This document shows positions 10,737 to 60,927 of a stretch of DNA of 64,000 bases, in pieces. Below the pieces are notes generated by a model that was not told where the DNA came from, did not search any database, and saw nothing but the letters and a program-made list of their open reading frames with translations. Within the stretch, counting starts at the first letter, position 1, and the number at the start of each line of letters is the position of its first letter. The DNA is from Neoarius graeffei (Eukaryota > Chordata > Actinopteri > Siluriformes > Ariidae). The position numbers and the translations under genes are program-made. Where the stretch lies: positions 1,833,768-1,897,767 of the forward strand of contig NC_083578.1 of assembly GCF_027579695.1 (NCBI RefSeq), given 5' to 3'.

Positions 10737-10739
<3 letters not shown>

Positions 10740-12345: not shown

Positions 12346-12479
12346 TATATATTCTGCACTTTATTAAACTGTATACTTCTGCACATACATCCACCTCCCT
12401 CACATACGTGACATGGAAATTATTCCATACGACTTCAAACCAACATGGAGTAGAGAAGAGTTGGAAAGATGACAGAATA

Positions 12480-13379: not shown

Positions 13380-14376
13380 GGCTCGTTCTTTATCTCACAC
13401 ACTCATACACACACTTGCCCACTCATACACACCATCACACACACTCATACACACCATCACACACCCTCATACACACACTCGCACACTCATACACACCCTC
13501 ACACACTCATACACACCATCACACACCCTCACACACACTTGCACACTCATACACACCCTCACACACTCATACACACACTTGCACACTCATACACACCCTC
13601 ACACACTCATACACACCCTCACACACTCATACACACACTTGCACACTCATACACACCCTCACACACTCATACACACCATCACACACCCTCACACACACTC
13701 GCACACTCATACACACCATCACACACTCATACACACCATCACACACCCTCACACACACTCGCACACTCATACACACCATCACACACCCTCACACACACTC
13801 GCACACTCATACACACCCTCACACACTCATACACACCATCACACACCCTCACACACACTCGCACACTCATACACACCATCACACACTCATACACACCATC
13901 ACACACCCTCACACACACTCGCACACTCATACACACCCTCACACACTCATACACACCATCACACACCCTCACACACACTCGCACACTCATACACACCATC
14001 ACACACTCATACACACCATCACACACCCTCACACACACTCGCACACTCATACACACCATCACACACCCTCACACACACTCGCACACTCATACACACCCTC
14101 ACACACTCATACACACCATCACACACCCTCACACACACTCGCACACTCATACACACCATCACACACTCATACACACCATCACACACCCTCACACACACTC
14201 GCACACTCATACACACCATCACACACTCATACACACCATCACACACCCTCACACACACTCGCACACTCATACACACCATCACACACTCATACACACCATC
14301 ACACACCCTCACACACACTTGCACACTCATACACACCCTCACACACTCATACACACACTTGCACACTCATACACAC

Positions 14377-14445
<69 letters not shown>

Positions 14446-15750
14446 CACTCATACACACCCTCACACACACACACTCATACACACACTTGCACACTCATAC
14501 ACACCCTTGCACACTCATACACACCCTTGCACACTCATACACACCCTCACACACTCATACACACCATCACACACACTCGCACACTCATACACGCCATCAC
14601 ACACCCTCATGCACACACATACACGCCCTCACACACTCATACACACACATACACACCCTTACACACCTTCACACACTCATACACACACTCACACACTCAT
14701 ACACACACTTGCACACTCATACACGCCCTCACACACTCATACACACACATACACACCCTTACACACCTTCACACACTCATACACACACTCACACACTCAT
14801 ACACACCCTCACACACACTCACACACCCTCACATACTCATACACACACTTGCACACTCATACACACCCTCACACACCCTCACATACTCATACACACCCTT
14901 GCACACTCATACACACCCACACACACCCTCATACACACACTCGAACACTCATACACACCCTCACACTCTCATACACACACAAACACACCTTTACACACCT
15001 GCACACACTCATACACACCCTCACACACTCATACACACTCATACACAGCCTCACATGCTCATACACACCCTTACACACCTTCACACACTCAGACACACCC
15101 TCATACACACCTTCACAGTCTCATACACACACTCTTACACTCAAACATACCCTCACACACTTGTACACAACCTCAAACACTCATAAATACTTTCACACAC
15201 TCGTATACACCTTCACACACTCATACACAACCTCAAACACTCATACACACCCTCACACGCTCATACACACCCTCACACACTCATACACACCCTCACACAC
15301 TCATACACACCCTCACACGCTCATACACACCCTCACACACTCATACACACCCTCACACGCTCATACACACCCTCACACGCTCATACACACCTTCACACAC
15401 TCATATAAACACTCGCACACTCATACACACCATCACACACCCTCACACACACTCGCACACTCATACACACCCTCACACACTCATACACACCATCACACAC
15501 CCTCACACACACTCGCACACTCATACACACCATCACACACTCATACACACCATCACACACCCTCACACACACTCGCACACTCATACACACCATCACACAC
15601 TCATACACACCATCACACACCCTCACACACACTCGCACACTCATACACACCATCACACACTCATACACACCATCACACACCCTCACACACACTTGCACAC
15701 TCATACACACCCTCACACACTCATACACACACTTGCACACTCATACACAC

Positions 15751-15806
<56 letters not shown>

Positions 15807-15822
15807 GCACACTCATACACAC

Positions 15823-15881
<59 letters not shown>

Positions 15882-16602
15882 CACTCATACACACCCTCAC
15901 ACACACACACTCATACACACACTTGCACACTCATACACACCCTTGCACACTCATACACACCCTTGCACACTCATACACACCCTCACACACTCATACACAC
16001 CATCACACACACTCGCACACTCATACACGCCATCACACACCCTCATGCACACACATACACGCCCTCACACACTCATACACACACATACACACCCTTACAC
16101 ACCTTCACACACTCATACACACACTCACACACTCATACACACACTTGCACACTCATACACGCCCTCACACACTCATACACACCATCACACACCCTCACAC
16201 ACACTCGCACACTCATACACACCATCACACACTCATACACACCATCACACACCCTCACACACACTCGCACACTCATACACACCATCACACACCCTCACAC
16301 ACACTCGCACACTCATACACACCCTCACACACTCATACACACCATCACACACCCTCACACACACTCGCACACTCATACACACCATCACACACTCATACAC
16401 ACCATCACACACCCTCACACACACTCGCACACTCATACACACCATCACACACTCATACACACCATCACACACCCTCACACACACTCGCACACTCATACAC
16501 ACCATCACACACTCATACACACCATCACACACCCTCACACACACTTGCACACTCATACACACCCTCACACACTCATACACACACTTGCACACTCATACAC
16601 AC

Positions 16603-16663
<61 letters not shown>

Positions 16664-18020
16664 CACTCATACACACCCTCACACACACACACTCATACAC
16701 ACACTTGCACACTCATACACACCCTTGCACACTCATACACACCCTTGCACACTCATACACACCCTCACACACTCATACACACCATCACACACACTCGCAC
16801 ACTCATACACGCCATCACACACCCTCATGCACACACATACACGCCCTCACACACTCATACACACACATACACACCCTTACACACCTTCACACACTCATAC
16901 ACACACTCACACACTCATACACACACTTGCACACTCATACACGCCCTCACACACTCATACACACACATACACACCCTTACACACCTTCACACACTCATAC
17001 ACACACTCACACACTCATACACACCCTCACACACACTCACACACCCTCACATACTCATACACACACTTGCACACTCATACACACCCTCACACACCCTCAC
17101 ATACTCATACACACCCTTGCACACTCATACACACCCACACACACCCTCATACACACACTCGAACACTCATACACACCCTCACACTCTCATACACACACAA
17201 ACACACCTTTACACACCTGCACACACTCATACACACCCTCACACACTCATACACACTCATACACAGCCTCACATGCTCATACACACCCTTACACACCTTC
17301 ACACACTCAGACACACCCTCATACACACCTTCACAGTCTCATACACACACTCTTACACTCAAACATACCCTCACACACTTGTACACAACCTCAAACACTC
17401 ATAAATACTTTCACACACTCGTATACACCTTCACACACTCATACACAACCTCAAACACTCATACACACCCTCACACACTCATACACACCCTCACACGCTC
17501 ATACACACCCTCACACACTCATACACACCCTCACACGCTCATACACACCCTCACACACTCATACACACCCTCACACGCTCATACACACCCTCACACACTC
17601 ATACACACCCTCACACGCTCATACACACCCTCACACACTCATACACACCCTCACACGCTCATACACACCTTCACACACTCATATAAACACTCACACACTC
17701 ATACACACCATCACACACTCTCAAACACTCATACACAATCTCACACACTCACATGCTCATACACACCCTCAAAGACTTGTACACACCCTCATACACTCGT
17801 ACACACATTTATGTACACAACCATCGATGATTCTACATAAACTCATACACTTGTATATTATCACACACACTCGTACACAACCTCACGCACTTCTATATTA
17901 TCTCACAGACTCATCCAAAACCTCCTACACTCATACTCAACCTCACACACTCACTTACACATAAGCTCACACTCTTACATAACCTCGCACACTTCTACAC
18001 AACCTTAAATACTCATACAC
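13380..18020. repeat. CA-rich compound satellite, about 20-bp unit, with higher-order duplication
   Basis: The basic unit is ACACACTCATACACACCCTC, with variants such as ACCATC, CTCGC and CTTGC. Pure (CA)n runs interrupt it near 14380, 15756, 15826 and 16610. Marker variants repeat at a 2218-base offset (for example CATAAATAC at 15182 and 17400, and the AGACACACC variant at 15091 and 17309), so a block of more than 2 kb was duplicated within the array. Long forward open frames of up to about 1430 codons exist only because the unit lacks stops. Confidence 0.95.
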
Positions 18021-18644: not shown

Positions 18645-19014
18645 GGCGGCACGGTGGTGTAGTGGTTAGTGCTGTCGCCTCACAGCAAGAAGGTCCGGGT
18701 TCGAGCCCCGTGGCCGGCGAGGGCCTTTCTGTGCGGAGTTTGCATGTTCTCCCCGTGTCCGCGTGGGTTTCCTCCGGGTGCTCCGGTTTCCCCCACAGTC
18801 CAAAGACATGCAGGTTAGGTTAACTGGTGACTCTAAATTGAGCGTAGGTGTGAATGTGAGTGTGAATGGTTGTCTGTGTCTATGTGTCAGCCCTGTGATG
18901 ACCTGGCGACTTGTCCAGGGTGAACCCCGCCTTTCGCCCGTAGTCAGCTGGGATAGGCTCCAGCTCGCCTGCGACCCTGTAGAAGGATAAAGCGGCTACA
19001 GATAATGAGATGAG
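18645..19014 (+). mobile_element. SINE (family A), full length
   Basis: The head begins GGCGGCACGGTGG with A and B boxes; the tail is GATGAGAT. A perfect 13-bp duplication ATATACTACCTCA lies at 18632-18644 and 19015-19027, inside the flank of the 40-bp satellite. Confidence 0.92.
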
Positions 19015-19027
19015 ATATACTACCTCA

Positions 19028-21270
19028 CATACCAGAGGTGTACGTGTGTGAGGTAGTGCATGAGAATCTGAGGTTGTGTATGAGCGTGTGAGGTAGTGCA
19101 TGAGGATCTGAGGTTGTGTAAGTGTGTGAGGTAGTGCATGAGGATGTGAAGTTGTGTATGAGCATGGGAGGTAGTGCATGAGGAACAGAGGTTGTATATG
19201 AGCATGTGATGTAGTGCATAAGGATCTGAGGTTGTGTATGAGTGTGTGATGTAGTGCATAAAGATGTGATGTACATGAGTGTGTGAGGTAGTGCATGAGG
19301 ATGTGAGGTTGTGTATAAGTGTGTGAGGTAGTGCGTGAGGATGTCTAGAAGTGTGTGAGGTAGTGCATGAGGATGTAAGGCTGTGTATAAGTGTGTGAGG
19401 TAGTGCATGAGGATCTGGGGTTGTGTATAAGTGAGAGGTAGTGCATGAGGATGTGAGGCTGTGTATAAGTGTGAGAGGTAGTGCATGAGGATCTGGGGTT
19501 GTGTATAAGTGTGAGAGGTAGTGCATGAGGATGTGAGGTTGTGTATAAGTGTGTGAGGTAGTGCGTGAGGATGTGTATAAGTGTGTGAGGTAGTGCATGA
19601 GGATGTAAGGCTGTGTATAAGTGTGTGAGGTAGTGCATGAGGATCTGGGGTTGTGTATAAGTGAGAGGTAGTGCATGAGGATGTGAGGCTGTGTATAAGT
19701 GTGAGAGGTAGTGCATGAGGATGTGAGGCTGTGTATAAGTGTGAGAGGTAGTGCATGAGGATGTGAGGCTGTGTATAAGTGTGAGAGGTAGTGCATGAGG
19801 ATGTGAGGCTGTGTATAAGTGTGAGAGGTAGTGCATGAGGATGTAAGGCTGTGTATAAGTGTGTGAGGTAGTGCATGAGGATGTGAGGCTGTGTATAAGT
19901 GTGAGAGGTAGTACATGAGGATGTGAGGCTGTGTATAAGTGTGAGAGGTAGTGCATGAGGATGTAAGGCTGTGTATAAGTGTGTGAGGTAATGGATGAGG
20001 ATGTGAGGCTGAGTATAAGTGTGAGAGGTAGTGCATGAGGATCTGGGGTTGTGTATAAGTGTGAGAGGTAGTGCATGAGGATGTGAGGCTATGTATAAGT
20101 GTGAGAGGTAGTGCATGAGGATCTGAGGTTGTGTGTAAGTGTGAGAGATAGTGTATGATAATGTGTGGTTATGTATAAGTGTGTGAGGTAGTGTGTGAGG
20201 ATGTGTATAAGTGTGTGAGGTAGTGCATGAGGATGTAAGGCTGTGTATAAGTGTGTGAGGTAGTGCATGAGGATCTGGGGTTGTGTATAAGTGTGAGAGG
20301 TAGTGCATGAGGATGTGAGGCTGTGTATAAGTGTGAGAGGTAGTGCATGAGGATGTGAGGCTGTGTATAAGTGTGAGAGGTAGTGCGTGAGGATGTGTAT
20401 AAGTGTGTGAGGTAGTGCATGAGGATGTAAGGCTGTGTATAAGTGTGTGAGGTAGTGCATGAGGATCTGGGGTTGTGTATAAGTGAGAGGTAGTGCATGA
20501 GGATGTGAGGCTGTGTATAAGTGTGAGAGGTAGTGCATGAGGATGTGAGGCTGTGTATAAGTGTGAGAGGTAGTGCATGAGGATGTGAGGCTGTGTATAA
20601 GTGTGAGAGGTAGTGCATGAGGATGTGAGGCTGTGTATAAGTGTGAGAGGTAGTGCATGAGGATGTAAGGCTGTGTATAAGTGTGTGAGGTAGTGCATGA
20701 GGATGTGAGGCTGTGTATAAGTGTGAGAGGTAGTACATGAGGATGTGAGGCTGTGTATAAGTGTGAGAGGTAGTGCATGAGGATGTAAGGCTGTGTATAA
20801 GTGTGTGAGGTAATGGATGAGGATGTGAGGCTGAGTATAAGTGTGTGAGGTAATGCATGAGGATGTGAGGCTGAGTATAAGTGTGAGAGGTAGTGCATGA
20901 GGATCTGGGGTTGTGTATAAGTGTGAGAGGTAGTGCATGAGGATGTGAGGCTATGTATAAGTGTGAGAGGTAGTGCATGAGGATCTGAGGTTGTGTGTAA
21001 GTGTGAGAGATAGTGTATGATAATGTGTGGTTATGTATGAGTGTGTGAGGTAGTGCATGAAGATGTGAGATTGTGTATACGTGTGAGAGGTGGTGCATGA
21101 GGATCTGAGGTTGTGTAAGATAGTGTGAGGTAGTGTATGAGGATGTGGGGTTGTGTATACGTGTGAGAGGTGGTGCATGAGGATCTGAGGTTGTGTAAGA
21201 TAGTGTGAGGTAGTGTATGAGGATGTGGGGTTGTGTGTAAGTGTGAGAGGTAGTGTATGATAATGTCACA
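19028..21270 (-). repeat. 40-bp satellite array in inverted orientation
   Basis: About 56 units of a 40-base monomer (GTGTGAGAGGTAGTGCAT, then GAGGATGTGAGGCTGTGTATAA). Variants ATCTGGGG, ATGTAAGG and some shortened 30-34-base units recur in the same order in two large blocks (about 19370-20160 and 20220-21030). The flanking sequence on both sides carries the same motif on the opposite strand. Minus-strand open frames of up to 637 codons are repeat artefacts. Confidence 0.93.
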
Positions 21271-21947: not shown

Positions 21948-22026
21948 GTGTCCTCCATGCTGTAGATATGAATATAACAGCGATAACAACAGCTTATAGA
22001 GCAGCACTACACACCACCATGTGTCC

Positions 22027-22400
22027 ATCCATCCATTATCTGTAGCCGCTTTATCCTGTTCTACAGGGTCGCAGGCGAGCTGGATCCTATCCCAGCTGAC
22101 TACGGGTGAAAGGCGGGGTTCACCCTGGACAAGTCGCCAGGTCATCACAGGGCTGACACATAGACACAGACAACCATTCACACTCACATTCACACCTACG
22201 CTCAATTTAGAGTCACCAGTTAACCTAACCTGCATGTCTTTGGACTGTGGGGGAAACCGGAGCACCCGGAGGAAACCCACGCGGACACGGGGAGAACATG
22301 CAAACTCCGCACAGAAGGGCCCTCGCCGGCCACGGGGCTCGAACCCAGGACCTTCTTGCTGTGAGGCGACAGCGCTAACCACTACACCACTGTGCCACCT
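22027..22400 (-). mobile_element. SINE (family A), full length
   Basis: A minus-strand copy with the B box (GGTTCGAGCCCC) and a (GGAT)n tail. The perfect 13-bp duplication CCACCATGTGTCC lies at 22014-22026 and 22401-22413. Confidence 0.92.
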
Positions 22401-22717: not shown

Positions 22718-23383
22718 ATGAAGCCTATCATGAGTCTCTCGCTCCCTAAAAGCGACTCGACCGCTTCTCTCATCAGATCTTCCGCGGCGGACCGGAGATC
22801 GCGAGCCCCGGACGAGCCGCTCTGGAGCCCCGAGAGCGACGCGAGCTCGCGCCGGCCGCTCTGCCACCCGGCGCTGCTGCTGCCGTCGCCACCGGACCGG
22901 AAGCGCGCGGCGGGGAAGAGCCAGCCCAAACTGCGTGACGATGCACCGGAGCAGCCGGGCGCGAGCAGCGGCGGTGACGGTGGTGGGAAAGAACGCAAGA
23001 CCTCCAGACACGCGCACCGACACCATCACCATCACCATCACCATAACAATCACCACCACCATCATCACCATCATCACCATCACCGGTCCGCGCGGGACGA
23101 CCTGCCGCACGAGCCGCGCACCAGACATGCTCACGGTGCTCGCGTGCCCAACCGGACTCGGTCTTTCTCCGAGGGCTCGGAAGAGACGGCCTCCACTTCT
23201 TCTTCCACCTCGCTCCTGTTCTTCCAGTCCCCCCGGACACACCAGCGGACATCCGGCACCGGGGGACAAGCGCGCGACCCCGACCCGGGCTCGTGCTCAC
23301 CGGCACCCGCAGCCTCCGCGAGCGCAGCATCTTCCGACTCGGACGTGAAACTGCGGCCTATTCTCAACTCCGTGTTCGGACAG
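22718..23383 (+). CDS. cabp1: cabp1 exon 1: caldendrin-specific N-terminus with polyhistidine
   Basis: Encodes residues 1-222. [15 protein letters not shown] resembles the mammalian caldendrin start, and [12 protein letters not shown] resembles its end. Residues 102-122 are eight His, two Asn and eleven His, from imperfect CAT/CAC repeats. GC content is far above the surroundings. The donor is GGACAG|GTGAGG. A pyrimidine-rich tract ending TTTAG|G at 22709 precedes the ATG, so an upstream non-coding exon may exist. Confidence 0.9.
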
Positions 23384-24956
23384 GTGAGGAGCAGAGACCG
23401 TGCCGAGACACTACAGGGCTTCATTAACACCTGGACTAGCTTATTCACATCTGGACTGTTTAAATAACACCGACAGTGCAGAATGAACATCTGCAGAGTT
23501 TAAGTAACACCTGGATTTGGTCATTAACACCTGGACACATACAGTGCAGCTAGATTAAAACACAGAGATGATTAACACCGGCACTATCTAAACAATATCT
23601 CAAAACAGTATGTAATGAACATGTGCAGAGTTTAATCCACACCTGTGACACAGAATTCACGCCTACGGTACAAGATTGAATTAAAATCTAAAATAAAGGT
23701 TTCACTCCTCCAGCAGCTGCACTGTCTAAATAACACCTACAGTATTTTTTTAATGTACTGATTTAACACCAACAGCACCACATGAACACCTACAGAGTTT
23801 TACATGATTAAACAAACACTGAGAGTTGAATTAAAACCTAAAATATTGAATTAGCGCCTGCATTGGGCTGTTAAACACTGCACTCTTTAAAGACCATGCT
23901 GTGAATTAACACCATGGGGCAAGAATCATGGTTAGAGAAGCAGCTTTGGGACCAAAAGGTCGCTGGTTTGATTCCCAGGACAAGCAGGAATGACTGAAGT
24001 GCCCTTGAGCAAGGCATCGAACCCCCGGCTGCTCCCCAGGCTGCCCTGGGTGTGTTGTACACCGCTCTGGATAAGAGCGTCTGCTAAACGCCTGTAATGT
24101 GATTATACAGAGTGTGTGTGTGTAATTACAGTATGATTATATTGAGTGTATTTAATCAATTCAGTTTTATTTATTTTAACAATGCACATGTCACAAAGCA
24201 GCTTTACACTAATCTGGATAAAAATTTAAAGAAATGTGTTGATTAATTATTTCACCAGCTCATGTAAAGTGTTAAATAACGCTTCAGATAAAGATCGTGT
24301 TCCTCTCAGCGTAACTGCTAGTTTAGTTCGTGTTGCTGTTTACTGTGTAATTAAAACTAGCATTCTGTGTTAATCATTACACAGACCCATTTTTCAATAC
24401 ATCTTTGAACGTTTAATCAATTCTAGCTTCAGTTTAAGTTTTACTCTTCTGGAAGTTTCTTTGAGAACTCATCACGTTCTGAAGTCTGAAAATTAGCACA
24501 TGCAAAATACACCCCCCCGAAGTATTGCTTACACACAACATCATTTAATGAATCAGACTGTACACAGACAACTTAGCTTCGTAATTTGTGACGTTAGTTG
24601 TAATAAATCAGAACCTGAATCAAACAGACACGTGTGTGATGTGACACGCACTAAAGCGGAGATTATAGGCGTTCATTATGTATTAGCTGCATTAGCATTG
24701 TAGCTCCAGTGCTAACATCAGGAATGTCACACACACAACTTTTTTTTTTTGGCTGATGAACTGCATTTTTTAAACACTGTATGCATTTTATTATGCCCAA
24801 ACTATTTTTTATTAACTGTGTGTGTGTTTTGTGTGTGTGATGTAATGTTGGGTTAGCGAATGAGAACGCACACATAATTTAATGGGAAAAACATTCTGTT
24901 TGGCCGTGTGTTGTTTTGCCTGTCACTCTAATTCACACCATGAATCAGTGGCTCAG

Positions 24957-25038
<82 letters not shown>

Positions 25039-26686
25039 TCTCAGCTTGCGTTGTGAACAGATGCTTCTGCAGTTTGTCTTCACAAGAACGAGGGAAATGT
25101 CCTCATGTGAAAATGCCATTTGCGCTTTTTTTACAGCTGTTTCCATATTTATCCTTTTTTATCTCTCATTCTTCTCCGTATTCCCGTTAGTGCTCTGTTC
25201 TCTCATGTCTTTCCCAGATCAATCTTTGCTTTCATCAAAAATACACTGCCACCATCATAACTCATTTCCCAGAAGACCAGAACAAGGTCAGAGAGATCTC
25301 AAAAAAATCAGTGTGTGTCTGAGAGAGAGAGAGAGAGAGAGAGATCACATAAAAATGTTCTTGCTAACATCAGGTTCAGTTCTGAGGATGAGAATATTTC
25401 TGTCGAGAGATGGATGTACATTTAATCACAGTTTATGGTGTTGTTCAAAAACGATTACTTTAGAACAGAGGGCAGGGTTAAGGTGGGGGGTCTGTGGGGG
25501 GGGGGGGATGGCTCCGCTTAACCACCTCACGACTGATAGATTATTGAAATGTGGTGTAAAATTTATGAAACAGATCCTCTTTGGTCATGAAGGTTAATTT
25601 TTCACTGAAACAGTGATGGAGCTGAGGGGACTGTGAAATGATGAATCCCTGTGAAAAAGAATCTGATCTAATTTATTCCATATTTAAGTGTTACACGTTA
25701 CAGTGCCACGGACATGTCAGGATTTCTTCATGTCAGACTGATTAAGACCGGTACAAAACGGTCCTGATTTAATCTAAACTTAGTCTAATCAAACTCTATT
25801 CCAATTTTAGTCCATTTCAGCCTGTTAATCAGATAAATCAGATCAGAACCAAAGCAGGCTTAATCCACCCCGATCTAATTAAACTGGGATCATTTTTCCA
25901 AAACAGAATCTGAACTAAATGTGGTGTAATCTAAACCTGATCTAATTTTAATCGTGTAATCTAGAAACTAACGGCGAGTGCGGAAGAGAAGTGAAGAAGA
26001 GAGTGTGAGCAGGTTGGAATGGATGGAGGAGAGGAGCAGGTCAGGAGCAATCTGTGACAGAAGGTTGCCAGCAAGAGTGAAAGGGAAAGTGTAGAAGACG
26101 GCAGTAAGAGCAGCGATGTTGTACGGTTTGGAGACAAAAAGACAGGAGGCTGAACTGGAGGGAGCAGAGCTGAAGATGCTGAGATTCTCACTGGGAGAAA
26201 CAAAGTTGGAAAGGATTAGAAATGAGAATATTAGAGGGACAGGATATGTAGGACGGCTTGGAGACAAAGTGAGAGAGTTGAGATTGAGATAGTTTGGACA
26301 CGTACAGAGGAGAGATCCAGGGTTTACTGGGAGAAGAACACTGGAGATGGAGTTGCAGGTAGAAAGGAAAGAGGAAGAGCAAAGATGCGATTTATGGATG
26401 TGGTGAAGGAGGACATGAGGATGGTTGGTGGGACAGAAGAAGATACGGACAACAGGAGGGACATTATCCACTGTGGAGACCCCGAACAGAAAGAGGAAGA
26501 ATCTAGAATGTGATCTAACTGAAATCTGGTCTAATCCAGACCTGGGTTTGAATTGCTGTGGAACTGAAAAGAAGTGACTCAGTGTGTGACAGCACAAAGA
26601 GAAAGTTTCCCCGAGTGTGAATCTACACTCATCCTGTTTGTCCCATGAGAACATACGACTGCAGAAACCCTTGTTAACAAACCCAG

Positions 26687-26764
<78 letters not shown>

Positions 26765-26872
26765 ATTTGTAGAATCTCCTATTAATGAATGTTTGGATTA
26801 GCAGCTTGGCTTCCTGCTGTGAGAACGCTAATATGGATGTCTGAATGAGAGGCACACTCCTCCTCCTACTGT

Positions 26873-26930
<58 letters not shown>

Positions 26931-27045
26931 AACTGACCCAAGTGGATAAAGCTTAATGGTGAAAAAACAGTTTTATTTAAGATGTAAAATGAACAGGTGT
27001 TAATGTGTGATGCAGTGTTTTTTGTTCAGTGGAAGCACTGAAGAA

Positions 27046-27106
<61 letters not shown>

Positions 27107-30100
27107 TAAACTGCTCCCTGTGGATTATGGTGAGAAATCAGGAATCACTGCATGCATAAACATGTACACAATAACAACACAGTAAATTCCCCATGCTACC
27201 ACTCTCAGCCAATCAGAACACACCGTACTGCTCTCAGCCAATCAGATCACAATGTGCTGCTCTCAGCCAATCAGAACACACCGTACTGCTCTCAGCCCAT
27301 CAGAACACACCGTACTGCTCTCAGCCCATCAGATCACACCGCGCTGCTCTCAGCCCATCAGATCACACCGTACTGCTCTCAGCCCATCAGAACACACCGT
27401 ACTGCTCTCAGCCCATCAGAACACACCGTACTGCTCTCAGCCAATCAGATCACACCATACTGCTCTCAGCCCATCAGATCACACCGTACTGCTCTCAGCC
27501 CATCAGAACACACCGTACTGCTCTCAGCCCATCAGAACACACCGTACTGCTCTCAGCCCATCAGATCACACCGCGCTGCTCTCAGCCCATCAGAACACAC
27601 CGTACTGCTCTCAGCCCATCAGAACACACCGCGCTGCTCTCAGCCCATCAGATCACACCGCGCTGCTCTCAGCCCATCAGAACACACCGTACTGCTCTCA
27701 GCCCATCAGAACACACCGTACTGCTCTCAGCCCATCAGATCACACCGCGCTGCTCTCAGCCCATCAGAACACACCGTACTGCTCTCAGCCCATCAGAACA
27801 CACCGTACTGCTCTCAGCCCATCAGATCACACCGCGCTGCTCTCAGCCCATCAGAACACACCGTACTGCTCTCAGCCCATCAGATCACACCGTACTGCTC
27901 TCAGCCCATCAGAACACACCGTACTGCTCTCAGCCCATCAGAACACACCGTACTGCTCTCAGCCAATCAGATCACACCATACTGCTCTCAGCCCATCAGA
28001 TCACACCGTACTGCTCTCAGCCCATCAGAACACACCGTACTGCTCTCAGCCCATCAGAACACACCGTACTGCTCTCAGCCCATCAGATCACACCGCGCTG
28101 CTCTCAGCCCATCAGAACACACCGTACTGCTCTCAGCCCATCAGAACACACCGCGCTGCTCTCAGCCCATCAGAACACACCGTACTGCTCTCAGCCCATC
28201 AGATCACACCGCGCTGCTCTCAGCCCATCAGATCACACCGTACTGCTCTCAGCCCATCAGAACACACCGCACTGCTCTCAGCCCATCAGAACACACCGCG
28301 CTGCTCTCAGCCCATCAGAACACACCGTACTGCTCTCAGCCCATCAGATCACACCGTACTGCTCTCAGCCCATCAGATCACACCGCGCTGCTCTCAGCCC
28401 GTCAGACCACACCATACTGCTCTCAGCCCGTCAGACCACACCATACTGCTCTCAGCCAATCAGATCACACCGCGCTGCTCTCAGCCCATCAGAACACACC
28501 GCACTGCTCTCAGCCCATCAGAACACACCGCGCTGCTCTCAGCCCATCAGAACACACCGTACTGCTCTCAGCCCATCAGATCACACCGTACTGCTCTCAG
28601 CCCATCAGATCACACCGCGCTGCTCTCAGCCCGTCAGACCACACCATACTGCTCTCAGCCCGTCAGACCACACCATACTGCTCTCAGCCCATCAGAACAC
28701 ACCGCGCTGCTCTCAGCCCATCAGAACACACCGCACTGCTCTCAGCCCATCAGAACACACCGCGCTGCTCTCAGCCCATCAGAACACACCGTACTGCTCT
28801 CAGCCCATCAGATCACACCGTACTGCTCTCAGCCCATCAGATCACACCGCGCTGCTCTCAGCCCGTCAGATCACACCGTACTGCTCTCAGCCCATCAGAA
28901 CACACCGTACTGCTCTCAGCCCATCAGAACACACCATACTGCTCTCAGCCCGTCAGATCACACCATACTGCTCTCAGCCCATCAGATCACACCGTGCTGC
29001 TCTCAGCCAATCAGAACACACCGTACTGCTCTCAGCCCATCAGATCACACCGTGCTGCTCTCAGCCAATCAGATCACACCGTGCTGCTCTCAGCCCATCA
29101 GAACACACCGTACTGCTCTCAGCCCATCAGATCACACCGTACTGCTCTCAGCCCATCAGAACACACCGTACTGCTCTCAGCCCGTCAGATCACACCATAC
29201 TGCTCTCAGCCCATCAGATCACACCGTGCTGCTCTCAGCCAATCAGAACACACCGTACTGCTCTCAGCCCATCAGAACACACCGTACTGCTCTCAGCCCG
29301 TCAGATCACACCATACTGCTCTCAGCCCATCAGAACACACCGTACTGCTCTCAGCCCATCAGATCACACCGTACTGCTCTCAGCCCATCAGATCACACCG
29401 TACTGCTCTCAGCCCATCAGATCACACCGTACTGCTCTCAGCCCATCAGATCACACCGTACTGCTCTCAGCCCATCAGATCACACCGCGCTGCTCTCAGC
29501 CCATCAGATCACACCGTACTGCTCTCAGCCCATCAGAACACACCGCACTGCTCTCAGCCCATCAGAACACACCGTACTGCTCTCAGCCCATCAGAACACA
29601 CCGTACTGCTCTCAGCCCATCAGAACACACCGCACTGCTCTCAGCCCATCAGAACACACCGTACTGCTCTCAGCCCATCAGAACACACCGCACTGCTCTC
29701 AGCCCATCAGAACACACCGCACTGCTCTCAGCCCATCAGATCACACCGTACTGCTCTCAGCCCATCAGAACACACCGCACTGCTCTCAGCCCATCAGATC
29801 ACACCGTACTGCTCTCAGCCCATCAGAACACACCGTACTGCTCTCAGCCCATCAGATCACACCGTACTGCTCTCAGCCCATCAGAACACACCGTACTGCT
29901 CTCAGCCCATCAGAACACACCGTACTGCTCTCAGCCCATCAGATCACACCGTACTGCTCTCAGCCCATCAGAACACACCGTACTGCTCTCAGCCCATCAG
30001 AACACACCGTACTGCTCTCAGCCCATCAGAACACACCGTACTGCTCTCAGCCCGTCAGAACACACCGTACTGCTCTCAGCCCATCAGACCACACCGCGCT

Positions 30101-33100
30101 GCTCTCAGCCCATCAGATCACACCGCGCTGCTCTCAGCCCATCAGAACACACCGTACTGCTCTCAGCCCATCAGAACACACCGTACTGCTCTCAGCCCAT
30201 CAGACCACACCGCGCTGCTCTCAGCCCATCAGATCACACCGTACTGCTCTCAGCCCATCAGAACACACCGTACTGCTCTCAGCCCATCAGAACACACCGT
30301 ACTGCTCTCAGCCCATCAGAACACACCGTACTGCTCTCAGCCCATCAGAACACACCGCACTGCTCTCAGCCCATCAGAACACACCGTACTGCTCTCAGCC
30401 CATCAGATCACACCGTACTGCTCTCAGCCCATCAGAACACACCGTACTGCTCTCAGCCCATCAGAACACACCGCGCTGCTCTCAGCCCATCAGAACACAC
30501 CGTACTGCTCTCAGCCCATCAGATCACACCGCGCTGCTCTCAGCCCATCAGATCACACCGTACTGCTCTCAGCCCATCAGAACACACCGCACTGCTCTCA
30601 GCCCATCAGAACACACCGCGCTGCTCTCAGCCCATCAGAACACACCGTACTGCTCTCAGCCCATCAGATCACACCGTGCTGCTCTCAGCCCATCAGATCA
30701 CACCGTACTGCTCTCAGCCAATCAGATCACACCGCGCTGCTCTCAGCCCGTCAGACCACACCATACTGCTCTCAGCCCGTCAGACCACACCATACTGCTC
30801 TCAGCCAATCAGAACACACCGTACTGCTCTCAGCCAATCAGAACACACCGTACTGCTCTCAGCCCATCAGAACACACCGCACTGCTCTCAGCCCATCAGA
30901 TCACACCGTACTGCTCTCAGCCCATCAGACCACACCGCGCTGCTCTCAGCCCATCAGATCACACCGTGCTGCTCTCAGCCCATCAGAACACACCGCACTG
31001 CTCTCAGCCCATCAGAACACACCGCACTGCTCTCAGCCCATCAGACCACACCGCGCTGCTCTCAGCCCATCAGATCACACCGCGCTGCTCTCAGCCCATC
31101 AGAACACACCGTACTGCTCTCAGCCCATCAGATCACACCGCACTGCTCTCAGCCCATCAGACCACACCGCGCTGCTCTCAGCCCATCAGATCACACCGTG
31201 CTGCTCTCAGCCCATCAGAACACACCGCACTGCTCTCAGCCCATCAGAACACACCGTACTGCTCTCAGCCCATCAGACCACACCGCGCTGCTCTCAGCCC
31301 ATCAGACCACACCGCGCTGCTCTCAGCCCATCAGATCACACCGCGCTGCTCTCAGCCCATCAGAACACACCGTACTGCTCTCAGCCCATCAGATCACACC
31401 GTACTGCTCTCAGCCCATCAGAACACACCGCACTGCTCTCAGCCCATCAGAACACACCGTACTGCTCTCAGCCCATCAGATCACACCGCACTGCTCTCAG
31501 CCCATCAGATCACACCGTACTGCTCTCAGCCCATCAGATCACACCGTACTGCTCTCAGCCCATCAGATCACACCGTACTGCTCTCAGCCCATCAGAACAC
31601 ACCGTACTGCTCTCAGCCCATCAGATCACACCGTACTGCTCTCAGCCCATCAGATCACACCGTACTGCTCTCAGCCCATCAGATCACACCGTACTGCTCT
31701 CAGCCCATCAGATCACACCGTACTGCTCTCAGCCCATCAGATCACACCGTACTGCTCTCAGCCCATCAGAACACACCGCACTGCTCTCAGCCCATCAGAA
31801 CACACCGTACTGCTCTCAGCCCATCAGATCACACCGCACTGCTCTCAGCCCATCAGATCACACCGTACTGCTCTCAGCCAATCAGATCACACCGTACTGC
31901 TCTCAGCCCATCAGATCACACCGTACTGCTCTCAGCCCATCAGAACACACCGTACTGCTCTCAGCCCATCAGATCACACCGTACTGCTCTCAGCCCATCA
32001 GATCACACCGTACTGCTCTCAGCCCATCAGATCACACCGTACTGCTCTCAGCCCATCAGATCACACCGTACTGCTCTCAGCCCATCAGATCACACCGTAC
32101 TGCTCTCAGCCCATCAGATCACACCGTACTGCTCTCAGCCCATCAGATCACACCGTACTGCTCTCAGCCCATCAGAACACACCGTACTGCTCTCAGCCCA
32201 TCAGATCACACCGCACTGCTCTCAGCCCATCAGATCACACCGTACTGCTCTCAGCCAATCAGATCACACCGTACTGCTCTCAGCCCATCAGATCACACCG
32301 TACTGCTCTCAGCCCATCAGATCACACCGTACTGCTCTCAGCCCATCAGATCACACCGTACTGCTCTCAGCCCATCAGATCACACCGTACTGCTCTCAGC
32401 CCATCAGATCACACCGTACTGCTCTCAGCCCATCAGATCACACCGTACTGCTCTCAGCCCATCAGATCACACCGTACTGCTCTCAGCCCATCAGATCACA
32501 CCGTACTGCTCTCAGCCCATCAGAACACACCGTACTGCTCTCAGCCCATCAGATCACACCGTACTGCTCTCAGCCCATCAGATCACACCGTACTGCTCTC
32601 AGCCCATCAGAACACACTGCACTGCTCTCAGCCCATCAGATCACACCGTACTGCTCTCAGCCCATCAGATCACACCGTACTGCTCTCAGCCCATCAGATC
32701 ACACCGTACTGCTCTCAGCCCATCAGATCACATCGTACTGCTCTCAGCTCATCAGAACACACTGCACTGCTCTCAGCCCATCAGATCACACCGTACTGCT
32801 CTCAGCCCATCAGAACACACCGTACTGCTCTCAGCCAATCAGAACACACCGTACTGCTCTCAGCCCATCAGATCACACCGTACTGCTCTCAGCCAATCAG
32901 AACACACCGTACTGCTCTCAGCCCATCAGATCACACCGCACTGCTCTCAGCCCATCATATCACACCGTACTGCTCTCAGCCCATCAGAACACACCGCGCT
33001 GCTCTCAGCCCATCAGAACACACCGTACTGCTCTCAGCCCATCAGATCACACCGTGCTGCTCTCAGCCCATCAGATCACACCGTACTGCTCTCAGCCAAT

Positions 33101-36100
33101 CAGATCACACCGCGCTGCTCTCAGCCCGTCAGACCACACCATACTGCTCTCAGCCCGTCAGACCACACCATACTGCTCTCAGCCAATCAGAACACACCGT
33201 ACTGCTCTCAGCCAATCAGAACACACCGTACTGCTCTCAGCCCATCAGAACACACCGCACTGCTCTCAGCCCATCAGATCACACCGTACTGCTCTCAGCC
33301 CATCAGACCACACCGCGCTGCTCTCAGCCCATCAGATCACACCGTGCTGCTCTCAGCCCATCAGAACACACCGCACTGCTCTCAGCCCATCAGAACACAC
33401 CGCACTGCTCTCAGCCCATCAGACCACACCGCGCTGCTCTCAGCCCATCAGATCACACCGCGCTGCTCTCAGCCCATCAGAACACACCGTACTGCTCTCA
33501 GCCCATCAGATCACACCGTACTGCTCTCAGCCCATCAGACCACACCGCGCTGCTCTCAGCCCATCAGACCACACCGCGCTGCTCTCAGCCCATCAGATCA
33601 CACCGCGCTGCTCTCAGCCCATCAGAACACACCGTACTGCTCTCAGCCCATCAGATCACACCGTACTGCTCTCAGCCCATCAGAACACACCGCACTGCTC
33701 TCAGCCCATCAGAACACACCGTACTGCTCTCAGCCCATCAGATCACACCGCACTGCTCTCAGCCCATCAGATCACACCGTACTGCTCTCAGCCCATCAGA
33801 TCACACCGTACTGCTCTCAGCCCATCAGATCACACCGTACTGCTCTCAGCCCATCAGAACACACCGTACTGCTCTCAGCCCATCAGATCACACCGTACTG
33901 CTCTCAGCCCATCAGATCACACCGTACTGCTCTCAGCCCATCAGATCACACCGTACTGCTCTCAGCCCATCAGATCACACCGTACTGCTCTCAGCCCATC
34001 AGATCACACCGTACTGCTCTCAGCCCATCAGAACACACCGCACTGCTCTCAGCCCATCAGAACACACCGTACTGCTCTCAGCCCATCAGATCACACCGCA
34101 CTGCTCTCAGCCCATCAGATCACACCGTACTGCTCTCAGCCAATCAGATCACACCGTACTGCTCTCAGCCCATCAGATCACACCGTACTGCTCTCAGCCC
34201 ATCAGAACACACCGTACTGCTCTCAGCCCATCAGATCACACCGTACTGCTCTCAGCCCATCAGATCACACCGTACTGCTCTCAGCCCATCAGATCACACC
34301 GTACTGCTCTCAGCCCATCAGATCACACCGTACTGCTCTCAGCCCATCAGATCACACCGTACTGCTCTCAGCCCATCAGATCACACCGTACTGCTCTCAG
34401 CCCATCAGATCACACCGTACTGCTCTCAGCCCATCAGATCACACCGTACTGCTCTCAGCCCATCAGATCACACCGTACTGCTCTCAGCCCATCAGATCAC
34501 ACCGTACTGCTCTCAGCCCATCAGATCACACCGTACTGCTCTCAGCCCATCAGATCACACCGTACTGCTCTCAGCCCATCAGATCACACCGTACTGCTCT
34601 CAGCCCATCAGAACACACCGTACTGCTCTCAGCCCATCAGATCACACCGTACTGCTCTCAGCCCATCAGATCACACCGTACTGCTCTCAGCCCATCAGAA
34701 CACACTGCACTGCTCTCAGCCCATCAGATCACACCGTACTGCTCTCAGCCCATCAGATCACACCGTACTGCTCTCAGCCCATCAGATCACACCGTACTGC
34801 TCTCAGCCCATCAGATCACATCGTACTGCTCTCAGCTCATCAGAACACACTGCACTGCTCTCAGCCCATCAGATCACACCGTACTGCTCTCAGCCCATCA
34901 GAACACACCGTACTGCTCTCAGCCAATCAGAACACACCGTACTGCTCTCAGCCCATCAGATCACACCGTACTGCTCTCAGCCAATCAGAACACACCGTAC
35001 TGCTCTCAGCCCATCAGATCACACCGCACTGCTCTCAGCCCATCATATCACACCGTACTGCTCTCAGCCCATCAGATCACACCGTACTGCTCTCAGCCCA
35101 TCAGAACACACCGTACTGCTCTCAGCCCATCATATCACACCGTACTGCTCTCAGCCCATCAGATCACACCGTACTGCTCTCAGCCCATCAGATCACACCG
35201 TACTGCTCTCAGCCCATCAGAACACACCGTACTGCTCTCAGCCCATCAGAACACACCGCGCTGCTCTCAGCCCATCAGATCACACCGTACTGCTCTCAGC
35301 CCATCAGAACACACCGTACTGCTCTCAGCCCATCAGATCACACCGCACTGCTCTCAGCCCATCAGATCACACCGTACTGCTCTCAGCCCATCAGATCACA
35401 CCGTACTGCTCTCAGCCCATCAGATCACACCGTACTGCTCTCAGCCCATCAGATCACACCGTACTGCTCTCAGCCCATCAGATCACACCGTACTGCTCTC
35501 AGCCCATCAGATCACACCGTACTGCTCTCAGCCCATCAGATCACACCGTACTGCTCTCAGCCCATCAGATCACACCGTACTGCTCTCAGCCCATCAGATC
35601 ACACCGTACTGCTCTCAGCCCATCAGAACACACTGCACTGCTCTCAGCCCATCAGAACACACCGTACTGCTCTCAGCCAATCAGAACACACCGTACTGCT
35701 CTCAGCCCATCAGATCACACCGCACTGCTCTCAGCCCATCAGATCACACCGTACTGCTCTCAGCCCATCAGATCACACCGTACTGCTCTCAGCCCATCAG
35801 AACACACCGTACTGCTCTCAGCCAATCAGAACACACCGTACTGCTCTCAGCCCATCAGATCACACCGCACTGCTCTCAGCCCATCAGATCACACCGTACT
35901 GCTCTCAGCCCGTCAGATCACACCGTACTGCTCTCAGCCCATCAGATCACACCGTACTGCTCTCAGCCCATCAGATCACACCGTACTGCTCTCAGCCCAT
36001 CAGAACACACCGTACTGCTCTCAGCCCATCAGAACACACCGTACTGCTCTCAGCCCATCAGAGCACACCGTACTGCTCTCAGCCCATCAGAACACACCGT

Positions 36101-37717
36101 ACTGCTCTCAGCCAATCAGAACACACCGTACTGCTCTCAGCCCATCAGATCACACCGCACTGCTCTCAGCCCATCAGATCACACCGTACTGCTCTCAGCC
36201 CGTCAGATCACACCGTACTGCTCTCAGCCCATCAGATCACACCGTACTGCTCTCAGCCCATCAGATCACACCGTACTGCTCTCAGCCCATCAGAACACAC
36301 CGTACTGCTCTCAGCCCATCAGAACACACCGTACTGCTCTCAGCCCATCAGAACACACCGTACTGCTCTCAGCCCATCAGAACACACCGTACTGCTCTCA
36401 GCCCATCAGAGCACACCGTACTGCTCTCAGCCCATCAGAACACACCGCACTGCTCTCAGCCCATCAGAACACACCGCGCTGCTCTCAGCCCATCAGATCA
36501 CACCGTACTGCTCTCAGCCAATCAGATCACACCGTGCTGCTCTCAGCCAATCAGATCACACCGTACTGCTCTCAGCCCATCAGACCACACCGCACTGCTC
36601 TCAGCCAATCAGAACACACCGTACTGCTCTCAGCCAATCAGAACACACCGTACTGCTCTCAGCCCATCAGATCACACCGCACTGCTCTCAGCCCATCAGA
36701 TCACACCGTACTGCTCTCAGCCCGTCAGATCACACCGTACTGCTCTCAGCCCATCAGAACACACCGCACTGCTCTCAGCCCATCAGAACACACCGCGCTG
36801 CTCTCAGCCCATCAGATCACACCGTACTGCTCTCAGCCCATCAGAACACACCGCGCTGCTCTCAGCCCATCAGATCACACCGTACTGCTCTCAGCCCATC
36901 AGATCACACCGTACTGCTCTCAGCCAATCAGATCACACCGTACTGCTCTCAGCCCATCAGAACACACCGCACTGCTCTCAGCCCATCAGAACACACCGCG
37001 CTGCTCTCAGCCCATCAGATCACACCGTACTGCTCTCAGCCAATCAGATCACACCGTACTGCTCTCAGCCCATCAGATCACACCGTACTGCTCTCAGCCC
37101 ATCAGATCACACCGTACTGCTCTCAGCCCATCAGAGCACACCGTACTGCTCTCAGCCCATCAGAACACACCGCACTGCTCTCAGCCCATCAGAACACACC
37201 GCACTGCTCTCAGCCCATCAGAACACACCGCACTGCTCTCAGCCCATCAGAACACACCGCGCTGCTCTCAGCCCATCAGATCACACCGTACTGCTCTCAG
37301 CCAATCAGATCACACCGTGCTGCTCTCAGCCAATCAGATCACACCGTACTGCTCTCAGCCCATCAGACCACACCGCACTGCTCTCAGCCAATCAGATCAC
37401 ACCGTGCTGCTCTCAGCCAATCAGATCACACCGTACTGCTCTCAGCCCATCAGACCACACCGCACTGCTCTCAGCCCATCAGACCACACCGCACTGCTCT
37501 CAGCCAATCAGAACACACCGCACTGCTCTCAGCCCATCAGAACACACCGCACTGCTCTCAGCCCATCAGAACACACCGTACTGCTCTCAGCCAATCAGAA
37601 CACACCGTACTGAGTTACATTAGTAATTATATTGAGAAGAAGAAGCCTTTTTTTTACCACATGTACACTCAAGCACAGTGAAATTCTTCGTCTGCATTTA
37701 ACCCATCTGAAGCAGTG

Positions 37718-37751
<34 letters not shown>

Positions 37752-38217
37752 AGTGAGCAATGAGCGCACACACACACACATACCCAGAGCAGTGGGCAGC
37801 TATACTACAGTACAGCGCCCGTGGAGCAGTTGGGGGTTCGGTGCCTTGCTCAAGGGCACTTCAGCCCTGATACAGAGGGAGGAGAAGGTGCTGTTCATTT
37901 ACTAATCTCCCCCAACATTTTTACTGTTGATCCTGGGAATCGACCCAGTGACCCTTTGGGCCCAAGGCTGCTTGTCTAACCTTCAGGCCATTGTAAAGAT
38001 TGCTGATAAATGATGAAAGGAAACAGTTCTTGGTACTCAGATGATTGAGTTCCAAAGTTTTCCAACAATTTGTGAGAACTGAATAACTTTAGACTTCCCG
38101 TGTCACTTCCTGTGTGAGATCAGTGAATGGATGGGATTTAAAAATGTCCGCTCTCAAAATATCAGTGGAACAATTACAGCATTCAGCACTGTGACGTTTC
38201 TGCTAATAATGAGTTAT

Positions 38218-38285
<68 letters not shown>

Positions 38286-38413
38286 GTATTGGTGTAAAGC
38301 CTCACTGCTCAGGAAACAGTTATGGATGAATGGAAAACTTGCTTAAAATTATTTTTATTAATGGAAATATTTTTCTCTGCACTGTGGCACTGTGATACTC
38401 ATTACATGTGTGA

Positions 38414-38471
<58 letters not shown>

Positions 38472-38570
38472 CTGAGCAGATGGTACTGAACTTATAAATA
38501 TATTAATAATATAAACAGGACTATAAAGTCAGTGTTTAACACCATCTTCTGGTTTAATCACTACAGAATT

Positions 38571-38617
<47 letters not shown>

Positions 38618-38632
38618 GATTCTAGAAAACAG

Positions 38633-38682
<50 letters not shown>

Positions 38683-38860
38683 CAATTCAATACTCTGATT
38701 GGTCACTTTAGCAGGTCTTTGTAGGAGTACGGTTGCTGACTGTCCATCTGTCTGTCTGTGTGTATAGAGTAATGTTTCCATTGAACTCTTTCGTCACATC
38801 TCTGTTCTCTGTGGGTCTCTTTCATGGCCTTTAAAGGCTTTGCACGCATCAGTATTTGTG

Positions 38861-38920
<60 letters not shown>

Positions 38921-39007
38921 CTGTTTTATAGAGGCAGGTGTGTGTGTGTTTACTTCAGCTACCACATGCTGCTAACCAGGAGATTCTGGTACACTGTCTG
39001 ATCACAT

Positions 39008-39059
<52 letters not shown>

Positions 39060-41793
39060 TCTACTCCATTTTGAATACACATATGTTTAAATACAAACTG
39101 TCTGTGTGTCGGTTTGTCCAGGACCGAGAGCTGAGACCTGAAGAGATTGAGGGTGAGTACAGATATTATACGCAGTGTGTGATTATAGTGTGTGTGTGAT
39201 TTTAGCGAGTGGGAAGCCATGACCTAAAAGTTAGAAAAGCAGCTTTGGGACCAAAAAATTTGCTGGTTTGATTCCCTGGACCGGCAGGAATGGCTGAAGT
39301 CCCCTTTAGTGAAGCGCTTAACCCTTAACTCCTCCCCAGACTGTTCTGGGTGTGTTGTACATTGCTCTGGATAAGAGCGTCTGCTCAATGCCTGTAAAGC
39401 CTCGGTCATAACCGGCCGTACATGCTCCTACAGCTGGTCTACGTGCAAAAAACGCAAGAAACGCACGGAGGGCGCGCGTGTGACGTGCTGATTTTCGAGC
39501 CGTAGACCGGCCGCAGAGGTTCTTTGTCATGTCAAACAAACTCTACGGGCGCTTACGTTTTTTTCAGGTTGCAAGACAAACTTACGGCCAACGTGTGTCT
39601 TCCTCCACGAACAAAAAAACGCAGCGATTTGGGAAACGCCAAAAATCGCACGGCCAAAAAATCGTGCGTCCGGTTGTGACCTAGGCTTAATGTGATTATA
39701 TAACAGTGTTCTCCCCAGACCGCTTTTGTGTGTCAGGGCCGACACGCCTAATTTCATGCTGGCATGCTTTAAATTTGCTGACATGCTATTTTTTTGCAGA
39801 CACACTATTTTTTTTTTGCTCCGACACTCACTGAAAAATCATGTCAGATTTCTACCTTGCGATGTTTGGGGCATATTTTAAAGAAAAATCAGTGTTTTGG
39901 GCCAGTTTGCTGCCATGATGCACTCAGGCAGACCGGAAATCCCCCTGGGAAATCCCCAGTCACAACAAACGCCCTCAATCACTTTGCTGCTGCACTGGTA
40001 CCACGACGCTTCAGTGCGCCAGTGAGCACCCTTGCACTGATATCACATTTACATTAGCTACCATCGCTACCCTATACCAGGAGGACAAGCAAACTTTGTT
40101 TACATACTGTTCACATACTGAAGCCAAGCAAAGATGTCCGGCGTCTGTTGCCTGAAGAAAACTACAGCTAAAAATGTTCTACTACCAGATTACTTGGATA
40201 ATCTTAGTCAGAAAGAAGCGAAGGATAGATATACATGGAAATTAGAGTTTATTAGTGGTTGTGATCCGTACAAAATTCCTCGAAATGACTGGAGTGACGG
40301 TGCAGATTTGTGGCCTAGCGTTAGCTACATGTTGGAATATACATTCTTTTTCCCAAAGAGTCCCAACACAGAAGAACAGTTAAAAAACTATAAAAGCAAG
40401 AAAGCCTTCTTTGTGTAAAGTCTTTTTCCCGACATCAGCTTTTGGGAACAGAATGTTGCGAAAGCCAAATCATTTACTCTCAAAGGACTTCAACCTGAAC
40501 TGTGGGCTGGATCTTATTCCCACCCCTCCATGTCTCAGCAACCCCATAGACACCTAGTTACACAGCTATCAGCACTTGATCACTTATACAGTGATGCTTA
40601 TTATTGTTAAAACAATATCTGAAGTGTTATTTTTTTGTTAAGTAACAAAATATCTTGCTCTAGACTTTCAAACAATGTTGTAAGATTTTATTTTCATTTT
40701 ATCTAATAGTGGCTGGTACAGTAATTACATTATTAATTAATACAGTAATTGCATGTACTAATAACAGTATTATTGCTCAAACATGCTGTTTATTCTTTTT
40801 TTTATTCATCTCATCTCATCTCATTATCTGTAGCCGCTTTATCCTTCTACAGGGTCGCAGGCAAGCTGGAGCCTATCCCAGCTGACTACGGGTGAAAGGC
40901 GGGGTTCACCCTGGACAAGTCGCCAGGTCATCACAGGGCTGACACATAGACACAGACAACCATTCACACTCACATTCACACCTACGCTCAATTTAGAGTC
41001 ACCAGTTAACCTAACCTGCATGTCTTTGGACTGTGGGGGAAACCGGAGCACCCGGAGGAAACCCACGCGGACACGGGGAGAACATGCAAACTCCACACAG
41101 AAAGGCCCTCGCCGGCCACGGGGCTCGAACCCGGACCTTCTTGCTGTGAGGCGACAGCGCTAACCACTACACCACCGTGCCGATTATTATTATTATTAGT
41201 TTCTAACTGCAACAGAACTCATTTAAATGTTTGGTTAGTGGTGTTCTGGCAGTGGTTCAGGGAATAAAACAGCATTATTATATACGACATTGTTGTCAGA
41301 TGATGACTTTATTCATCGCTCATGTGAACCCCATGCTGCAAACCACAGCGTCACAGACCTCACCTTGTTGTAGCAATCTTTTCAACCATGTTAACAGTAA
41401 AAAGTGACAGTGTCAATACCACCATAAAATGCTCCTAAAAGTCACCAGATGCCATCAAATGGGCTCCCTTTTTTCAGACCTCCTCTCCTACTCTCCCCCC
41501 GCACATCTACATATTCTCCATCCTACAGGCCACACACCCAAAAGTTAGGGCTTTATTTTAATCCTGGGGAGAACACTGGTATAGTGTGTGATTATAGAGA
41601 CAGAGACTGTGTATGTAATTATAATATGATTATACTGAGTGTGTGTTTTCAGAGATTGTGTGATCATAGCGAGTGTGTGAATCTCGGGAGTGTGTTTGAA
41701 ATTATATTATTGTAGTATGATTATATTGAGTGTGTGATACTTGCAAGTGTGTGATTTCAGGGATTGTGTTATTATGGCAAGTGAGTGATTATA

Positions 41794-41856
<63 letters not shown>

Positions 41857-42001
41857 ACTCCGTGAAGCATTTAAAGAGTTTGATAAAGACAAGGATGGCT
41901 TTATCAGCTGTAAAGACCTGGGGAACTGTATGAGGACGATGGGCTACATGCCCACTGAAATGGAGCTGATCGAACTGAGCCAACAGATCAACATGAACCG
42001 T

Positions 42002-50249: not shown

Positions 50250-50624
50250 CACACACATCACATTATCTCTAGCCGCTTTATCCTTCTACAGGGTCGCAGG
50301 CAAGCTGGAGCCTATCCCAGCTGACTACGGGCGAAAGGCGGGGTACACCCTGGACAAGTCGCCAGGTCATCACAGGGCTGACACATAGACACAGACAACC
50401 ATTCACACTCACATTCACACCTACGGTCAATTTAGAGTCACCAGTTAACCTAACCTGCATGTCTTTGGACTGTGGGGGAAACCGGAGCACCCGGAGGAAA
50501 CCCACGCGGACACGGGGAGAACATGCAAACTCCGCACAGAAAGGCCCTCGCCGGCCCCGGGGCTCGAACCCAGGACCTTCTTGCTGTGAGGCGACAGCGC
50601 TAACCACTACACCACCGTGCCGCC
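50250..50624 (-). mobile_element. SINE (family A), full length
   Basis: Minus-strand copy with intact A and B boxes. The perfect 14-bp duplication CGTATTTCCAATGT lies at 50236-50249 and 50625-50638. Confidence 0.93.
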
Positions 50625-50857
50625 CGTATTTCCAATGTGTAGTATGTTATACATCACCGCAGACCACGATGCTGCATTGTGTTACGCGTCACGCCTCTGG
50701 TTGTGGAACAATGACACTGTAAAAACACACACTGGTGTGGCTTCATGCTGACTTTATTTGGTTCAGTGAAAATCACTAAAGCTGGAATATTGAGGGTCCC
50801 TGTGTAAAAGGGGCAGGTCTCAAAGAACAAGGTGTGGCCTGTGTGTCTGTCAGTCAT

Positions 50858-60907: not shown

Positions 60908-60927
60908 GTAAAGTGGCGAATAAAACT

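Follow-up and report, generated by a model that had tools for sequence, protein, structure and literature searches.

It has been well documented that satellite DNA can be born inside non-autonomous mobile elements: Tetris and TIR-220 are described in this light (PMC4079207), and MITE, DINE and Alu cases have also been reported (PMC9659126). A different kind of tandem repeat, the intronic TRACT array of human CACNA1C, has been described as growing through runs of identical units (PMC13131567). The locus considered here is a 29-bp minisatellite in the first intron of CABP1 in the catfish Neoarius graeffei, within a stretch of 64,000 nucleotides (the window) that was analysed as a whole. We think it probable, at about 0.8 on the strength of sequence comparison, that this array is a transposon-internal module that escaped its element and was expanded by whole-unit recombination. 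All data on the array and on the other loci come from one assembly, and hence one individual.

The array and its setting in CABP1

The array is real and is unusually long and regular: its 10,411 bp amount to 359.0 units of 29 bp, and 359 of 359 units stand in register with no indel, making exact the figure of about 359 near-perfect units in the earlier note. Of the extent given there, 27195 to 37612, the end holds and the start lay seven bases too early (Table 1). With tandem units in the range of ~10-100 bp it is a minisatellite or VNTR, and its motif is matched 359 times in the window against 0.00 in 100 shuffles, the rest of the window yielding no further monomer copies beyond 13-bp chance matches. 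There are 26 distinct unit types, none more than four mismatches from the consensus, and units differ from one another at a mean of 1.65 sites. The same alignment counts 98 indels in the 20-bp array of the window, 43 in the 40-bp array and 32 in the 35-bp array, and none in a short 35-bp array of 182 bp. The constancy of unit length that had been called unusual is thus genuine, but it is less odd than it seemed, as 13 substitution states (the count being at least that) at 10 of the 29 columns suffice to produce all 26 types. The monomer has no exact match in the viral or the prokaryote collection, Rfam at its gathering cut-offs has no match in the window, and the array folds no more strongly than shuffles on any strand, whether as DNA (z +0.66 and +1.37) or as RNA (z +2.48 and +0.88). 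The word GAACACACCGTAC, found in 94 units, is one base off what we take to be the steroid-receptor palindrome, GNACANNNTGTNC.

Table 1. Features of the window in order of position
Feature	Position	Strand	Remarks
Aspartyl/asparaginyl beta-hydroxylase domain	577..1248		neighbour gene
Telomere-like array	1533..1686		degenerate, rich in CCCTAA/ACCCCTTACCC; ~1.835 Mb from C10 start
Dispersed repeat of ~370 bp	6470..6840; 18701..19016; 22026..22396; 40806..41182; 50256..50625; 60927..61300; and others		at least 6 copies, mostly 90-99% alike pairwise
Distant copy of the ~370-bp repeat	57363..57726		~73% alike
Tc1/Sleeping Beauty-type transposase pieces	10730..12352		between 220-bp inverted repeats 98.6% alike
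20-bp array	13394..17806		~221 copies; more diverged than the 29-bp array
40-bp array	19044..21260		~56 copies; more diverged than the 29-bp array
CABP1 upstream coding exon	22718..23383	+	long, caldendrin-like start; donor at 23384; label probable
CABP1 intron 1	23384..39121		15,738 bp
29-bp tandem array	27202..37612	+	359 units; consensus CTCTCAGCCCATCAGATCACACCGTACTG; assembly place C10:1860969-1871379
First unit	27202..27230	+	CTCTCAGCCAATCAGAACACACCGTACTG; same sequence as last unit
Tandem block, first copy	30595..32972	+	units 118-199 (82 units, 2,378 bp)
Tandem block, second copy	32973..35060	+	units 200-271 (72 units, 2,088 bp)
Last unit	37584..37612	+	same sequence as first unit
Unrelated dispersed repeat	37658..37981	.	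starts 46 bp past the array; no match to carrier-element arms
Next CABP1 coding exon	39122..39152	+	acceptor 39120-39121; read from sequence
Further CABP1 exons	41856..41999; from 42182, 42415, 42839	+	boundaries read from sequence
35-bp arrays	51527..53507; 55861..56089		same 35-bp unit in both; flank the 694-aa frame
694-aa open frame	53600..55681	-	zf-C17orf113 and hAT dimerisation domains; may be part of a hAT element bounded on each side by the 35-bp arrays
Malectin domain	63227..63574		neighbour gene

The earlier note was right to place the array in CABP1 intron 1, of which it makes up 66%: coding exons flank it on both sides, and the protein of the downstream exons has CaBP1 as its best solved relative (3ox5, E 2.5e-87; CaBP4, 5.9e-53). 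The upstream exon, for which Pfam gives no hit, presumably belongs to CABP1, being assigned by match to human sequence only; an alternative first exon, sought with a human fragment, was not found (best E 0.55). The CABP1-MLEC neighbourhood is presumably also that of human. Minisatellites of all kinds occupy 31% of the window.

Open frames and coding potential

The array was described as open in all three forward frames over about 3500 codons, and so it is: there are 0/0/0 stops on the plus strand within it (307/302/300 on the minus strand), and the forward frames measure 3515, 3482 and 3475 codons from stop to stop, or 3509, 3476 and 3453 aa from ATG, one ATG lying inside the array. Because 29 does not divide by three, a single 29-codon cycle passes through all three frames; each frame is the same 29-residue repeat cycle shifted in phase by 10 codons, and for this reason the three open frames represent one coincidence rather than three. 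Nor is the coincidence rare, as 39.7% of shuffled monomers are free of stops, as are 29-mers from the window outside its arrays in 22.1% of cases when one strand is considered and in 36.9% when either may count; with 22-40% of comparable 29-mers stop-free by chance, coding is not indicated.

That the frames nevertheless code for a repeat protein is so improbable that we reject it. In its favour are three frames of ~3,450-3,510 codons, each with an ATG start; against it are the intronic position of the array, the frequency of chance-open monomers just given and the near-openness, on one strand, of the neighbouring 20-bp array (2, 0 and 2 stops) and 40-bp array (1, 1 and 3 on the minus strand). 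Among 20 other arrays of the family, most contain stops and only three (L012, L025 and L026) are stop-free in every frame. The repeat peptide has no Pfam hit above cut-off, the weak ones being an IFT122 zinc ribbon (22.0 vs 27.3 bits) and a copper fist (18.5 vs 25), and beyond the stop-free frames we find no mark of a protein-coding tandem repeat. The view that the openness is a property of the monomer and no evidence of a protein is therefore upheld by the frequency of stop-free monomers and by the Pfam result, and a long open frame within a repeat is no reason to call a gene.

The unit family and its carrier element

In the 2.34-Gb assembly the unit core, with up to two mismatches, has 6,527 matches (4,696 forward and 1,831 reverse, CABP1 array included), and a reversed-pattern control has 0. 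The search for the monomer elsewhere in the genome that the earlier note had proposed thus finds it dispersed genome-wide, in agreement with the 'dispersed satellite' half of the outcome that the note had set against itself, and the idea of a locus-specific minisatellite has to be abandoned, as the unit lies elsewhere inside a dispersed element. A literature search, its scope being papers rather than repeat databases, found no 29-bp fish repeat.

Two sets of loci were fetched. One comprises 20 loci picked from the best BLAST matches to the window array; the other, drawn irrespective of array size, comprises 20 exact-match loci taken in list order, of which 13 are all the new ones on contig C1 and seven the first of 17 on C2. 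In this second set, the units are flanked by a common left arm at 20 of 20 loci and by a right arm at 19 of 20, and there is one unit at nine loci, two at six, three at three, five at one and 24 at one. In the first set, with 8 to 173 units, at least one arm is present at 17 of 20 loci: L009 and L017 are armless, and L028 has no left arm and a right end beyond the fetched stretch. One arm has been lost at L014, L021 and L022, and the array lengths of L013 and L028, which run beyond the fetched stretch, are lower bounds. The copy number therefore forms a series from 1 to at least 173 units elsewhere, with 359 at CABP1. At five loci (L012, L016, L023, L025 and L026) spacings of 31 bp or 36 bp alternate with 29 bp, unlike the pure register at CABP1, and a cluster of 29-bp-unit arrays at C10:4193685-4277973, several of them ~4 kb apart with equal scores, looks as if a larger unit had itself been repeated.

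The arms end sharply, ~180 bp before the units on the left and ~230-260 bp after them on the right, where the arm has two forms, one of which duplicates a portion of the left one. In the genome, a 25-bp left-arm core is matched 904 times (control 0), and the ends of the element are consistent, AAGTGTTGCC...GAGGTAA, adjoining TAA- or AAC-rich sequence. As the unit is found at armed loci with fixed ends and the left-arm core recurs 904 times, it is an internal module of a dispersed and apparently non-coding element. The location of the unit within a dispersed element with common arms, together with variable unit numbers and kb-long arrays, is what would be expected of a transposon-derived satellite. 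The class of the carrier is less readily read from its ends: compared by eye, they form no clear inverted pair of the kind that, with a target-site duplication, defines a MITE, and the hairpins at both are weak (z -0.7 to -1.2). Helitrons carry the 3' end motif CTRR with a preceding hairpin, and the copies here, which end in GAGGTAA, do not match a Helitron or DINE carrier in this respect.

The relation between array size and the CCAAT box was followed in 21 arrays (the window and the 20 best-match loci), five of them on C10 and so not independent. CCAAT units account for 0-49% in the seven arrays of at least 63 units and for at least 69% in the 14 of up to 53 units, array length and CCAAT fraction being negatively correlated (Spearman -0.75, P 8e-5); the CABP1 array has 37 units with AGCCAATCAG, presumably a strong NF-Y site, and 304 with CCCAT. 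Taking 5.5 Mb from a contig end as the limit, a value set after the data were seen, 12 of the 21 arrays fall inside it (expected ~13%), compared with 0 of 33 CCAAT loci on C1 and C2. For left-arm copies the figure is 2 of 45 (C1, C2 and C5). Outside that count, the left-arm copies listed fall in the first 5.5 Mb in 1 of 18 cases on C3, 0 of 17 on C4 and 4 of 20 on C6, the last running against the trend, and a CCAAT locus at 4.99 Mb on C3 is likewise uncounted. Larger arrays are thus more often found towards contig ends and are lower in CCAAT, correlations that belong to a small and partly similarity-selected sample, with limits drawn after the fact. One might imagine that the change from CCAAT to CCCAT frees the module, such that arrays no longer bound by an NF-Y-type factor that had kept their replication or recombination faithful would expand, chiefly near chromosome ends, and hop without the element, a scheme we consider decidedly unlikely.

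Growth, origin and comparison with known systems

Neither arm of the carrier has a whole or partial match anywhere in the window, so that the CABP1 array is without an arm on either side and is not itself joined to the element; its descent from the element would consequently have to be read from the identity of its units. Unit type A, the commonest at CABP1, has 121 exact forward matches, as many as the window has A units, and a further 48 in reverse orientation, which among the fetched loci are accounted for by 45 in an array at C10:1.08M and 3 on C6 (three C6 places being among the matches listed). In the 2.34-Gb assembly, type A is thus found in three arrays. Types C, E, G, J and L are common to CABP1 and C10:1.08M only, among the 40 fetched loci, although some common types could be convergent, as columns 25-26 look like CpG decay. 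The two arrays lie on the same contig, 0.78 Mb apart and in opposite orientation, both are armless, and the ordered runs that they have in common are short (6 units, AAABAA). The simplest reading would be a multi-unit transfer between them.

Within the CABP1 array, the two adjoining blocks of Table 1 can be aligned over 71 identical units, so that 2,059 bp pass without a single substitution; their only differences, at two places, affect whole units. The array has 16 ordered repeats that span five or more units and four or more types, whereas 50 shuffles of unit order give 0.26 on average and never more than 2; smaller block duplications have lags of 8, 10 and 18 units, and the longest run of a single type is 13 units. 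CCAAT-type units make up 13 of the 59 units at the edges (first 30 and last 29) and 24 of the 300 inside (Fisher P 0.0036), and the type of the first and last unit, present at 30 of the 40 fetched loci, is the commonest in short arrays elsewhere; with CCAAT units richer there and end units of a widespread type, the edges look older than the interior.

The recent amplification suggested by the earlier note is borne out as a whole-unit process by the 71 identical units in tandem, unless the blocks are an assembly duplication. The alternative, that two alleles were assembled in tandem and part of the length is an artefact, would account for copies that differ, as alleles might, by whole units at two places, but it is unlikely given that block duplications of other lags occur in the same array and that other loci have arrays of 98 to 173 units. 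A question of a different kind is whether the intron received a whole element that subsequently lost both arms, with no escape of a naked array. Nearly all sampled units sit in copies of the element and three copies are already one arm short, and such a history is possible; we nonetheless hold it doubtful, as there is no trace of either arm at CABP1 and the closest array by unit types, at C10:1.08M, is armless too. It has finally to be asked whether the array has an effect on CABP1 or on chromatin, for instance by offering many CCAAT/NF-Y sites or by modifying intron length or splicing. The 37 AGCCAATCAG units could be cited for this, as could the human intronic 30-bp repeat in CACNA1C, which is described as linked to expression (PMC13131567), yet 304 units carry CCCAT and the sense RNA folds less than shuffles (z +2.48), and a role of this kind seems to us very unlikely.

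For the reading that we prefer, escape of an internal module, the following order of events may be proposed. A short non-coding element carries the 29-bp word as an inner module, usually 1-3 times, and some copies would have gained further whole units of it. The units may then, in a few lineages, have left the element, as suggested by the armless state of the CABP1 array and the private types that it has in common with C10:1.08M. No arm junction survives at CABP1 that would show the escape, and a multi-unit piece could have entered the intron by ectopic exchange or by reinsertion of an extrachromosomal circle. Growth there would have kept exact register, through unequal exchange or slippage, the latest step being a tandem duplication of a ~2.4-kb block, and presumably without gene function. 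If so, most of a 10-kb gene intron can arise from one word of a mobile element. One genome presents many stages of satellite birth, from the single module through a few, tens and hundreds to armless arrays, and this graded series lets one ask which step (position, motif loss or arm loss) accompanies runaway growth.

Among known systems, the DINE/Helitron elements differ in the CTRR end motif, which is absent at the carrier ends here. In Drosophila their central tandem repeats are described as giving rise to satellite arrays, with a hairpin near one end, as in the catfish (PMC9659126). According to the same report, the monomers of miDNA4 in Xenopus tropicalis and Xstir in X. laevis also lie inside a short non-autonomous element and were amplified and homogenised; their carriers are MITEs with inverted repeats, whereas the carrier here has weak end hairpins and we leave its class unassigned (PMC9659126). 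TRACT, a 30-bp intronic VNTR of 3-30+ kb, resembles the CABP1 array in belonging to a calcium-signalling gene and in having few point variants, but its longest stretch of identical units numbers 26 as against 13, and the accessible text on TRACT gives no mobile-element origin, whereas the CABP1 unit is dispersed genome-wide (PMC13131567). Tetris, the foldback transposon of Drosophila virilis, is as described also non-autonomous, with variable internal tandem repeats and kb-long satellite-like arrays; there, the 220-bp unit of TIR-220 lies in terminal inverted repeats and in beta-heterochromatin, whereas the catfish unit is 29 bp long, lies between two arms and forms its longest array in the intron of a gene (PMC4079207).
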